Positions 8,121 to 10,701 of a stretch of DNA of 64,000 nt are shown piece by piece. Under the pieces are notes generated by a model. That model did no database searches and was not told the DNA's origin. It saw only the letters and a list, made by a program, of their open reading frames with translations. Source of the DNA: Nocardioides marmorisolisilvae (lineage in GTDB: Bacteria > Actinomycetota > Actinomycetes > Propionibacteriales > Nocardioidaceae); the NCBI RefSeq assembly GCF_031656915.1, contig NZ_CP134227.1, positions 3,348,001-3,412,000 of the forward strand, given 5' to 3'. Each line of letters begins with the position of its first letter. Positions within the stretch are counted from its first letter, which is position 1. A program made the position numbers and the translations under genes.

Positions 8121-8687
8121 CTAAGCCTCGCAGACCACCATCCGGTAGGCACCGTGGACGGTGCGACGCACCGCCGTCTTGCCGTCCACGGTGATCGTGC
8201 AGGTGACCGAGCCTCCCTTGGGGGCGACCACGCCGCCGACGATCACGTGCACCCCGGGAGCCTGGATGCGGGCGCTCTTGACATACGGGTCGGGCGGGAA
8301 CTGCTTGGCGTATCTGGTGCCGTTGAGATCCTTGTAGCCCACCCAGCCCAGTGACCCGTTCCCGGACACGGTGCTGAGGTAGGTGTGCATGCCCGGCCCG
8401 TACTGGAACGACGTGCCCTGCGGGGCCGCTGCCTCCAGTGCCTTCAAGGTGGCGGCCCTTCCGGTGGCCACCGCTGAGTCCGCCGTCGCGGGGTCGCCAC
8501 TGCGGTGGTGACGGCGGTGGTGCCGAGTGTGATGAGGCGTGCTGGCGGACTGTGTGCTGGTGGACGGATCGGTCTGCGGCTGGTCGGCCCGGTGGTGCAG
8601 CCGGACCACCACGAAGGCGATCAGGACCGCGGCCGCGCACAGTCCGATGATCCACCTACGCAGCTTTCGTCGTGTCGATCGGCGCAT
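8121..8687 (-). CDS. MmpS-like membrane-anchored exported protein
   Basis: A 188-residue protein with a basic N-terminus, one transmembrane helix (about residues 12-29) and a His- and Ser/Thr-rich linker (about 35-65) before a globular C-terminal half. The C-terminal part has a pair of Cys (VTCTITVDG and VVCEA) and the shape of the MmpS-type transport accessory fold. It would be anchored in the membrane with the domain outside. No MmpL partner is in the window. The function is not known; the family match is moderate. Confidence 0.55.
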   Translation of the reverse strand: MRRSTRRKLRRWIIGLCAAAVLIAFVVVRLHHRADQPQTDPSTSTQSASTPHHTRHHRRHHRSGDPATADSAVATGRAATLKALEAAAPQGTSFQYGPGMHTYLSTVSGNGSLGWVGYKDLNGTRYAKQFPPDPYVKSARIQAPGVHVIVGGVVAPKGGSVTCTITVDGKTAVRRTVHGAYRMVVCEA

Positions 8688-8794
8688 GCTCCGCCCTATC
8701 CTCGCTACCCCGGCGCGGCGGATTGCCGCTCGAACCCCATAACGACCCAGGCTGCCGGCCCGTTACGACTGGGAGGATGGATCGAGTGATCTCG

Positions 8795-8800
8795 TATTAT
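8795..8800 (+). promoter_or_regulatory. Candidate -10 box upstream of the sulfur leader peptide
   Basis: TATTAT is the best -10-like hexamer in the 369-nt gap 8688-9056. A transcript starting about 7 nt later would begin roughly 30 nt before the leader peptide ATG at 8837. No convincing -35 is visible 17 nt upstream. Confidence 0.3.
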
Positions 8801-8836
8801 GGACACGCGGACCACATGGCGAGATAGGGAGTGGGT

Positions 8837-8944
8837 ATGCGGCCGCTCTCGACCTACTCTTGCTCCATGTCCTCGACCATGCTGACCAAGCGCCGCGCAG
8901 TGGACCACTGCCGCGTGCGCTCGGCGCTGTGTCGAATGTCCTGA
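8837..8944 (+). CDS. Putative cis-acting leader peptide of a sulfur operon (35 aa)
   Basis: A small ORF absent from ordinary gene calls. The ATG at 8837 has a good GGGAG site 5 nt upstream; internal ATGs at 8867 and 8879 are alternatives giving 25 or 21 residues. The C-terminal part reads LTKRRAVDHCRVRSALCRMS, matching the short basic, Cys-containing 'putative leader peptide' family seen in front of sulfur-metabolism genes in many actinobacteria. Its stop at 8944 is immediately followed by a 10-bp stem and then the DUF4395-rhodanese-DUF1416 operon. I infer translation-coupled attenuation in response to cysteine; the sequence shows only the peptide and the stem. Confidence 0.7.
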   Translation: MRPLSTYSCSMSSTMLTKRRAVDHCRVRSALCRMS

Positions 8945-8945
8945 C

Positions 8946-9016
8946 CGGACGCCAGGAGCCGCACTGCGCGGCACCCGTTACGCACGTGTGTTGAACGCGG
9001 TGCGCACTGGCGTCCG
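8946..9016 (+). promoter_or_regulatory. Stem-loop after the leader peptide, possible attenuator
   Basis: CGGACGCCAG (8946-8955) pairs perfectly with CTGGCGTCCG (9007-9016). Inside the 51-nt loop is a smaller hairpin GCCGC/GCGGC (8958-8972). The outer stem begins 2 nt after the leader stop codon, so a ribosome at the end of the leader would mask its 5' arm. That arrangement suits attenuation or control of the DUF4395 start, but there is no U-tract. Confidence 0.5.
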
Positions 9017-9056
9017 ACGCCGATGCCCGATCCGTTTTCCGACGTCAGGACAACCC

Positions 9057-9545
9057 GTGAGCCGATTCGACGCGCCTGCACCACTCGATGCCCGAGGGCC
9101 GCAGTTCAACGCGACGCTGACCAGCGCGGTGCTGGCAGTGGCGCTGCTGACGGCGACCACGCCGGTCGGGGTGGTGCTGCTTGCCATCCAGGCCGCACTG
9201 TTCGCCACCGGGGTCGTCCTCGGCGTCCAGCGGACCCCGGCGGCGTACCTGTTCCGCACGATCGTGCGGCCGCGCCTGGGACCACCGACCCGCTTGGAGG
9301 ACCCGCGCCCGCCGCGGTTCGCCCAGGGCATCGGCTTGGTGTTCGCACTCGTCGGGCTGGTCGGATTTCTCGCCGGACCGACGTGGCTCGGGTACGCCGC
9401 CACTGGGATGGCACTCGTCGCCGCCGTGCTCAACGCCAGCGTCCAGGTCTGCCTGGGCTGCAAGGTCTACGGCGTATGCCACCTGCCCCAGAACAACTAC
9501 GACAACAAACAGACCCTCAACAACAAGAAGGAAGCACTCGTATGA
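9057..9545 (+). CDS. DUF4395 membrane protein
   Basis: A 162-residue protein from GTG 9057, preceded by CAGGA 9 nt upstream; a longer frame from 8988 would run through the attenuator stem and is rejected. It has an N-terminal FNATLTSAV segment, about four hydrophobic helices and a C-terminal CLGCKVYGVC cluster, the signature of DUF4395 proteins. These usually sit beside rhodaneses or thioredoxin-like proteins, so a role in membrane sulfur or thiol chemistry is likely, but the biochemical function is unknown. The stop overlaps the rhodanese ATG (ATGA at 9542). Confidence 0.8.
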   Translation: MSRFDAPAPLDARGPQFNATLTSAVLAVALLTATTPVGVVLLAIQAALFATGVVLGVQRTPAAYLFRTIVRPRLGPPTRLEDPRPPRFAQGIGLVFALVGLVGFLAGPTWLGYAATGMALVAAVLNASVQVCLGCKVYGVCHLPQNNYDNKQTLNNKKEALV

Positions 9546-10390
9546 GCCGCGAAAACTCTCTGGTCACCGCCGAGTGGGTGCAGGAGCACCTCTCCGACCC
9601 GAAGGTGGTGCTCGTCGAGGTCGACGAGGACACGACCGCCTACGACAAGGGCCACATCCAGGGCGCCATCAAGCTCGACTGGACCACCGACCTGCAGGAC
9701 CAGGTCCGTCGTGACTTCGTCAACCGCGAGCAGTTCTCGGCGCTGCTCTCCGAGCGCGGCGTCAGCAACGACGACACCGTGGTGCTGTACGGCGGCAACA
9801 ACAACTGGTTCGCCGCCTACGCCTACTGGTACTTCAAGCTCTACGGTCACGACGACGTGAAGCTGCTCGACGGCGGCCGCAAGAAGTGGGAGCTCGACAG
9901 CCGTGAGCTGACCGACGAGGTGCCCACTCGCGAGAAGACCAGCTACACCGCCAAGGAGCAGGACCGCTCGATCCGGGCGTTCCGCGACGAGGTCGTCGAC
10001 GCGATCGGCACCAAGAACCTGGTCGACGTGCGCAGCCCTGACGAGTACGCCGGCCGGCTGCTCGCCCCGGCCCACCTGCCCCAGGAGCAGGCCCAGCGCG
10101 GTGGCCACATCCCGACCGCGGCCAACGTGCCGTGGAGCAAGGCCGCCAACGACGACGGCACCTTCCGCTCCGATGACGAGCTGAAGCAGATCTACACCGA
10201 GGCCGGTGTGGACTGGGACAAGGACACCATCGCCTACTGCCGGATCGGCGAGCGCTCCAGCCACACCTGGTTCGTGCTCAAGGAGATCCTCGGCGGCGAG
10301 AACGTCAAGAACTACGACGGCTCGTGGACCGAGTGGGGTTCGCTGGTCGGCGTGCCGGTCGTTCTGGGTGACGAGGCTGGTGAGGCCTGA
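9542..10390 (+). CDS. Two-domain rhodanese, thiosulfate sulfurtransferase (CysA2/SseA type)
   Basis: A 282-residue tandem rhodanese: an inactive N-terminal domain (about 1-135) and a C-terminal domain carrying the active-site loop YCRIGERSSHTW with the catalytic Cys near residue 234. The CRIGER loop is that of the actinobacterial CysA2/CysA3 and SseA sulfurtransferases, which move sulfane sulfur from thiosulfate or 3-mercaptopyruvate to thiol or cyanide acceptors. It is coupled to DUF4395 upstream (4-nt overlap) and DUF1416 downstream (1-nt overlap). The operon is probably controlled by the upstream leader peptide. Confidence 0.92.
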   Translation: MSRENSLVTAEWVQEHLSDPKVVLVEVDEDTTAYDKGHIQGAIKLDWTTDLQDQVRRDFVNREQFSALLSERGVSNDDTVVLYGGNNNWFAAYAYWYFKLYGHDDVKLLDGGRKKWELDSRELTDEVPTREKTSYTAKEQDRSIRAFRDEVVDAIGTKNLVDVRSPDEYAGRLLAPAHLPQEQAQRGGHIPTAANVPWSKAANDDGTFRSDDELKQIYTEAGVDWDKDTIAYCRIGERSSHTWFVLKEILGGENVKNYDGSWTEWGSLVGVPVVLGDEAGEA

Positions 10391-10701
10391 TGTGCGGCGC
10401 GACTGAGGGCGGGCTGTCGCTGGACGGCGTCAACGTCGCCAAGGAGGCCATCATCCAGGGGCAGGTGACCCGCGCCGGTCAGCCCGAGGGCTCGGCGTAC
10501 GTCCGGCTGCTGGACCGCACCGGCGAGTTCACCGCCGAGGTGCCGACCTCGGCGACTGGTCACTTCCGGTTCTTCGCCGGCCCCGGTGACTGGACGCTGC
10601 GCACCCTGGCTCCCAAGGCCGAGCCGGTGGACCGCACGGTGACTGCGGCGACCGGCGTGGTTGCCGAGGTGGCCGTCGCGATCGGATCGAAGCGGACCTG
10701 A
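10390..10701 (+). CDS. DUF1416 (SseC-like) protein
   Basis: A 103-residue protein starting MCGAT and forming one beta-sandwich domain of the transthyretin/carboxypeptidase-regulatory type (GQVTRAGQPEGSAYVRLLD ... FRFFAGPGDWTLR). DUF1416 proteins are the steady partner of CysA2-type rhodaneses (SseC in mycobacteria). The N-terminal Cys2 may carry or accept sulfur, but that is inference. The stop of the rhodanese and this ATG overlap by one base (TGATG). A strong terminator follows 3 nt after the stop. Confidence 0.9.
   Translation: MCGATEGGLSLDGVNVAKEAIIQGQVTRAGQPEGSAYVRLLDRTGEFTAEVPTSATGHFRFFAGPGDWTLRTLAPKAEPVDRTVTAATGVVAEVAVAIGSKRT

Follow-up and report, generated by a model that had tools for sequence, protein, structure and literature searches.

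A 25-codon leader ORF precedes the DUF4395-rhodanese-DUF1416 operon in the window (the whole 64,000-nucleotide stretch of DNA that was analysed), and one of its two Cys codons is fixed as TGT in all 118 leaders compared, from 49 genera. The fixed UGU at one leader position is new here; the peptide family itself is known. We put the probability at roughly 0.7 that this leaderless leader is a cysteine-responsive attenuator of the operon, in which a ribosome stalled at UGU would free the ribosome-binding site. Judged by sequence comparison, the leader is real, widespread and of the cysteine type; its family includes a poly-Cys relative that has been studied, and the window carries a structured variant with two Cys.

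All genes of the operon lie on the forward strand. The middle gene (9542..10390), for which we assume the name CysA2, encodes a two-domain, CysA2-like rhodanese with ATG at 9542 and the stop codon at 10388-10390; its best matches in a scan of named genomes were in the Nocardioidaceae, which makes this the probable family of the host. It stands between the genes of a DUF4395 protein with a GTG start (9057..9545) and a DUF1416 protein (10390..10701). The operon had been named in a preliminary description of this DNA and was confirmed by Pfam matches of the DUF4395 protein (PF14340, 1.4e-38), the rhodanese (PF00581, 7.6e-37) and the DUF1416 protein (PF07210, 8.8e-37).

The leader frame, also on the forward strand, is open over 35 codons from ATG 8837 to 8944 and ends LTKRRAVDHCRVRSALCRMS, with TGA at 8942-8944. 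GTG 8831 is in the same frame, GGGAG lies at 8827-8831, and an internal ATG at 8867 opens 25 codons (8867..8944, MSSTMLTKRRAVDHCRVRSALCRMS). ATG 8867 is the probable true start of a leader ORF that is supported by the sequence, the matches to NF042933 and NF042934 and its retention in relatives. A putative -10 box TACTCT (TANNNT; 8855..8860, forward strand) lies 6 nt before it. TANNNT was found 5–8 nt (mostly 7 nt) ahead of an in-frame start in 110 of the 118 leader loci, with 0.7% for a shifted-position control, and the spacing recurred in 74 of 75 leader loci selected by their rhodanese. A generic sigma-70 scan of 8700-9100 gave no promoter, so the promoter was assigned from comparison only. 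The spacing across loci points to ATG 8867, not 8837, as the start. On this spacing, the leader mRNA in the window is probably leaderless, with 25 codons from ATG 8867, an arrangement that is common in actinobacteria. The GGGAG site and ATG 8837 probably lie upstream of the transcript, as does the N-terminal extension of the 35-codon form (8837..8866, forward strand), although its frame is open. The preliminary description had given a 35-codon (or 25-codon) ORF with a good GGGAG site. Both frames and GGGAG are present, but a Shine-Dalgarno-led 35-codon start was rejected on the -10 spacing, which predicts a transcript start at or adjoining 8867, downstream of GGGAG.

The leaders share the core LTKRRAVDxCRVxxxLC. 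In the window, the peptide core LTKRRAVDHCRVR is encoded at 8882..8920 of the forward strand; its amino acids were constant and its codons variable in the tables of 118 and of 75 loci. The NCBIfam profiles NF042933 and NF042934 scored 38.8 bits (cut-off 45) and 23.7 bits (cut-off 27) against the 35-amino-acid form, and the NF042933 score in the genome search was 37.5 bits. As both scores were below the curated cut-offs, the leader of the window is a relative of these families and not a member. No other convincing leader was found in the window's own genome, where the next best candidates scored 17 bits with NF042934 (150 of 159 candidates scored) and 11.5 bits with NF042933. An Rfam search of 8600-9300 at E ≤1 gave no match.

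With the DUF4395 protein as query, 41 relatives gave a match, and loci were built for 29 of them. The peptide search proposed earlier for the regions upstream of related DUF4395/rhodanese operons found the core conserved in 28 of these 29 loci, ahead of the CysA2-type rhodanese/DUF1416 operon. The exception was L028 (genome G028), with its leader (L122) beside the rhodanese, 17 kb from DUF4395 on the same contig. In this genome, the leader stayed with the rhodanese-DUF1416 unit, apart from DUF4395.

At the level of the class, NF042933 matched at E ≤1e-3 in 267 of 394 sampled genomes (48 exceeding the cut-off) and in none of 14 control genomes. All 90 leader loci that were fetched had a rhodanese, DUF4395 or DUF1416 gene downstream in the same direction, the rhodanese in 89 of them. 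When loci were chosen by their rhodanese alone, a leader was found upstream in 75 of 80. A 76th leader (L328), missed by the pattern because of a Leu in place of the core Arg, was seen by eye, and four loci showed none. These counts bear out the earlier claim that an unannotated peptide of the actinobacterial Cys/Arg leader type precedes a sulfane-sulfur operon. One group's leader reads LTKRRAVDLCRVAGCCCCCCSC, and the named Mycobacterium and Mycolicibacterium loci have the same or nearly the same peptide. The poly-Cys mycobacterial forms of the Ms5788A leader have the LTKRRAVD core in common with the leader of the window.

The first set of 118 leaders comprised the window, 28 relatives and 89 class loci (49 genera, 21 families), the class loci being mostly the better-scoring among the 267 matching genomes. 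L091, one of 119 leaders, was kept outside the tables of 118 loci, and its codons were read separately. The rhodanese-selected set of 80 loci was taken from named genomes (Nocardioides, Micromonospora, Streptomyces, Nocardia, Actinomadura, Mycobacterium and others) with the window's rhodanese as query; judged by eye, it shared at least four loci with the first set (L277, L279, L286 and L323). In the core, the pattern for the 118 leaders demanded Arg, A or V, V or I, Asp and the first Cys, with R or K in front of the core. The patterns for the rhodanese-selected set and for the lower-scoring and related leaders demanded Arg (R, H or K for the lower-scoring and related ones), Asp and the second Cys. 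The invariance of the demanded residues is therefore partly imposed; no pattern demanded a codon.

The leader of the window holds two Cys in 25 residues, without a Cys run. The proposed control codon (TGT at 8930..8932, forward strand) encodes the Cys nine residues past the core Asp, at position 12 counted from the Arg before AVD. It was TGT in 118 of 118 leaders and also in L091. That a Cys codon falls near the leader stop had been stated before, and the comparison with relatives agreed: the stop followed three codons after UGU in 86 of the 118 leaders. The leader's other conserved Cys (position 5) was TGC in 111 of 118 leaders and in 67 of 73 of the rhodanese-selected set. Other well-conserved residues with synonymous codons used more than one codon among the 118 leaders. 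The rhodanese catalytic Cys of the same loci was TGC in 49 of 50 readable cases. Other Cys codons in the rhodanese open frame, which was read from stop to stop and is partly not coding, were TGC in 35 and TGT in 19 cases.

In the rhodanese-selected set, the control codon was TGT in 70 of 75 leaders, the rhodanese catalytic Cys was TGC in 80 of 80 and the rhodanese Cys codons were TGC in 82 of 82. The five non-TGT loci (L303, L321, L334, L338 and L343) are all Nocardia; they read LTRRRTVDLCRLGGCCCLCR and have TGT two codons earlier.

The bases flanking the control codon varied among loci. A structural RNA reason for UGU is therefore unlikely, and the reading of UGU as part of an RNA element was set aside. 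In GC-rich genomes (eleven samples including the window, 66–75% GC), TGT made up 16–33% of Cys codons; these figures come from a crude ORF set in which TGT is probably overcounted. We read UGU as a slow or minor codon that was presumably chosen for the control position. Thirty lower-scoring leaders had TGT in 25 and TGC in 5 cases. In a low-GC, small-genome family (f29, with L239 added), the control Cys was TGT in 7 and TGC in 6 of 13 loci; hence, UGU is not absolutely needed. The TGC loci were L134, L140, L141, L148, L149 and L239. TGT accounted for 40–58% of Cys codons in ten samples of this family (46–52% GC). The UGU rule is thus relaxed in f29, where UGU is not a minor codon.

The peptide, the codon, the -10 spacing and the operon are conserved, and both helices described below occur in the genus/family set. 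To these, the proposed mechanism adds by inference stalling, cysteine sensing, release of the Shine-Dalgarno sequence and tunnel contacts. With ample Cys-tRNA, the ribosome would pass UGU 8930 and terminate. The segment 8937-8945 would then pair with the DUF4395 Shine-Dalgarno region at 9044-9052. The 10-bp stem would stack on this helix, and expression of the operon would be low. With scarce Cys-tRNA, the ribosome would stall with UGU in its A site and cover the anti-Shine-Dalgarno strand, so that the ribosome-binding site would be freed and the operon switched on. The control codon would act as a wobble-read, minor Cys codon of these GC-rich genomes. The RRAVDxCRV core would lie in the upper exit tunnel, 5–13 residues behind the A site, and would probably aid the stall.

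The preliminary description had placed a perfect 10-bp stem after the leader, enclosing 51 nt and ending 40 nt before the DUF4395 start (GTG 9057). This stem was found in the sequence and in the helix test, with its 5' arm CGGACGCCAG at 8946..8955 and its 3' arm CTGGCGTCCG at 9007..9016 (both forward strand). Minimum free energy folds of 8837-9080 and of 8930-9070 both held, beside the stem, a second helix that had been missed before. In it, the predicted anti-Shine-Dalgarno strand UGUCCUGAC (8937..8945, forward strand), made of the last sense codons and the stop, pairs with GUCAGGACA (9044..9052, forward strand), which contains the DUF4395 Shine-Dalgarno sequence AGGA (9047-9050). The predicted probability of this pairing in the window was 1.00. 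In a translation attenuator, the Shine-Dalgarno sequence is paired in the unstalled fold, and this is what was predicted for the window.

The fold of 8837-9080 was more stable than shuffled sequences (z -3.66; none of 200 shuffles equally stable), as were those of 8930-9070 (z -2.72; 4 of 200) and 8930-9059 (z -4.3; 60 shuffles). A perfect 10-bp helix had a p-value of 0.01 against 100 shuffles. Fold tests across loci used 98 of the 118 loci: a start was assigned in 107, nine were dropped by eye as wrong or doubtful, and some of the remaining starts may be wrong. The start-score limit of -4.8 was chosen so that the weak start of the window itself (-4.9) would pass, and it excluded no additional locus. 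The stretch from UGU to the start was on average more structured than shuffles, with a mean z of -1.63 in the genus/family set (30 loci, of which L027 belongs to another family of the same order) and -1.18 in 68 class loci.

The leader end paired more strongly with its own Shine-Dalgarno region than with swapped partners (mean -13.48 versus -12.12 kcal/mol; own stronger in 66 of 98 loci, p 2.4e-5), where this and the following p-values for pairing and helices count related loci as independent. The class-wide part showed the same (46 of 68, p 0.0012). In the genus/family set taken by itself, own pairing was stronger in 16 of 30 loci (p 0.095, not significant), and a core segment used as control gave 43 of 98 (p 0.36). 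The predicted pairing of the Shine-Dalgarno sequence with the leader end exceeded 0.5 in 26 of 98 loci, and in 7 of 30 of the genus/family set. In this set, the strand around the stop formed longer helices with the downstream region than in shuffles (13 of 30 loci at p<0.05, Fisher 8e-9). The class-wide helix test gave no signal (4 of 68 at p<0.05, Fisher 0.94). The longest helix ended 6–26 nt before the start in 14 of the 30 genus/family loci, mostly joining the leader end with the Shine-Dalgarno region. It ended 37–52 nt before the start, the position of the 10-bp stem, in 12 loci and elsewhere in 4, and the arm sequences differed among loci. Hence, the expectation of a stem conserved in relatives held within the genus/family set, where it recurs with different sequences, but not class-wide.

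Ribosome stalling was modelled as a masked footprint at UGU. Predicted accessibility of the Shine-Dalgarno sequence increased by over 0.05 in 41 of the 98 loci and decreased in 18; its mean went from 0.31 to 0.39, versus 0.31 with an upstream control footprint. In the closest relative by DUF4395 (L003), accessibility rose from 0.01 to 0.60. In the window, the Shine-Dalgarno sequence stayed closed (0.00 to 0.01) because it re-paired with an early leader segment. This segment comprises the first leader codons (8868-8877), in which UGUCCU and GAC duplicate the anti-Shine-Dalgarno sequence. Release at the window locus is no more than plausible. With a footprint reaching 12–15 nt past UGU, the 10-bp stem was predicted to stay folded; 18 nt or more broke it. 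The earlier idea that ribosome stalling switches this stem directly was not supported: the stem is predicted to stay intact under a 12–15 nt footprint and its signal is absent outside the genus/family set. The helix between leader end and Shine-Dalgarno region is more telling than the 10-bp stem.

Constraint on the peptide itself bears on an alternative that we consider unlikely, namely, that the RRAVDxCRV nascent chain is a true arrest peptide. It would stall the ribosome at UGU in response not simply to Cys-tRNA charging but to a sulfur metabolite or to cysteine on the ribosome. L at -4 and R at -1, neither demanded by the pattern, were present in 75 of 75 rhodanese-selected loci despite three and five synonymous codons, which argues that amino acids, and not only bases, are under constraint. 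Known arrest peptides contact the exit tunnel about 5–13 residues back from the A site. By analogy, a ribosome with UGU in its A site would have the core 5–13 residues behind, which suggests a tunnel contact at the same distance. The fixed distance from core to UGU and the frequent stop three codons past UGU also fit an arrest peptide. The stall residue, however, is a Cys, and many sulfur genes lie downstream; plain codon sensing explains this already, and poly-Cys relatives exist. We also consider it unlikely that the leader acts on transcription, through Rho or RNA polymerase pausing, instead of on translation initiation. The weak Shine-Dalgarno pairing in many loci would suit this, and Rho was weakly proposed for mycobacterial cys leaders in a 2005 paper (PMC1262725). 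Yet no intrinsic terminator (a hairpin with a U run) was found in 8700-9100, and the Shine-Dalgarno sequence of the window is predicted to be wholly paired with the leader end.

One tRNA reads both Cys codons, and its ms2i6A37 modification is made with sulfur by MiaB. UGU might thus read the modification state of tRNA-Cys, and the leader might sense sulfur via decoding quality and not charging alone. We regard this as very unlikely. A codon-specific constraint despite a single tRNA would be in its favour, and among 30 genomes tested, MiaA was above cut-off in all 30 and MiaB matched in 30 (29 above cut-off). However, the f29 genomes with TGC have both enzymes too, so enzyme presence does not discriminate and failed as a separator of UGU and UGC lineages. 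That ORF and stem arose by chance and have no function has next to no probability. Short length is all that favours it, and conservation of the peptide, the codon, the -10 spacing and the position across the class refutes it as stated.

Cysteine-responsive leaderless short ORFs of Mycobacterium smegmatis are a precedent for the attenuator reading, according to PMC9094748 and PMC13236596, both of which cite Canestrari et al. 2020 for the polycysteine leaderless short ORFs of mycobacteria. Ms5788A (NF042933) resembles the leader of the window in its LTKRRAVD core, its place before a rhodanese/DUF1416 operon, its leaderless -10 spacing and UGU at the same position. The window leader differs in its two Cys codons without a run (38.8 of 45 bits), and the genus/family set differs in having helices that were not seen class-wide. 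The 2005 paper described Cys leaders of Mycobacterium, P. acnes and B. longum that are likewise short ORFs ahead of cys genes, their Cys codons close to the stop; its authors saw no conserved hairpin and suggested Rho, and its cysteine section is silent on codon choice (PMC1262725). The available text of an S. lividans reannotation gives eight leader peptides, none of them stated to be cysteine-dependent (PMC8079986).

The fixed UGU, its fixed spacing from the core and its spread before sulfur genes were stated in no publication found by a literature search, which left most subscription literature outside, including Canestrari et al. 2020, the main mycobacterial work. The core-like strings RRAVDL, RRHVDL, RLHVDL, HVDLLRV and RRHIDL matched only viral or viral-epitope papers; LTKRRAVD was less fully covered.

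Attenuators are usually described by their count of codons for the regulated amino acid. Classical ones such as that of the leu operon use rare control codons, and a minor codon at the control position is the likeness here. In contrast to these, the present leaders have one fixed codon, a conserved peptide core and, in 8700-9100 of the window, no intrinsic terminator that could be found. Their Cys count runs from one to eight, while position, codon spelling and amino-acid core are constant over much of a bacterial class. With these leaders, one can test directly whether the choice between synonymous codons is enough to set sensitivity, whether the nascent chain contributes and what share of Actinomycetes sulfur metabolism is run by copies of one leader. 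Moreover, their pattern is a means to annotate many missed regulatory ORFs.

Related leaders were found before other genes as well, with up to 14 NF042934 matches per genome (26 genomes). NF042934 is a cis_reg_atten family with the same D-x8-C geometry, and many of its leaders precede sulfur genes. Among 64 unique leaders with this geometry that were not known to precede a rhodanese, the control codon was TGT in 62 and TGC in 2. Outside the 64 were seven that did not fit the pattern (four with HMD, all with TGT at this place, and three with a stop there) and L235-L237, all with TGT. These leaders differ from that of the window (23.7 of 27 bits) in that many read HVDLxR instead of RAVDxCR, and the leaderless -10 spacing was found in only 19 of 64.

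A Pfam scan covered 63 of 116 candidate downstream ORFs; rhodanese loci, loci of low-scoring leaders and apparent wrong frames had been removed by hand, and some wrong frames may remain. It yielded sulfite reductase (13), luciferase-like monooxygenase (10), family 5 binding protein (6), dicarboxylate-type symporter (5), TauD (5), PALP (4), cysteine dioxygenase (3) and POR_N (3), and single matches included PAPS reductase, Cys/Met metabolism and TauE. We read the luciferase-like monooxygenases as SsuD type. Not all of the downstream genes are plainly sulfur genes.

A wider reading is tentative, with the odds somewhat against it. There would be one class-wide sensor, in which the conserved nascent chain in the tunnel sets the stall at the single fixed UGU, so that Actinomycetes would read their sulfur status from one synonymous codon. 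The D-x8-UGU module would have been copied before many sulfur genes, and the RNA switch rebuilt in each lineage.

Some related leaders deviate individually. In the NF042934-type leaders L206, L228 and L229 of genus g41 (probably Streptomyces), TAG, TGA and TGA replace UGU at about 248–257 of each oriented locus, so that termination comes directly after the core. Genome G115 carries three leaders of the RxVDLMRVAxQLC type (L137/L235, L236 and L237), two of them less than 1 kb apart.
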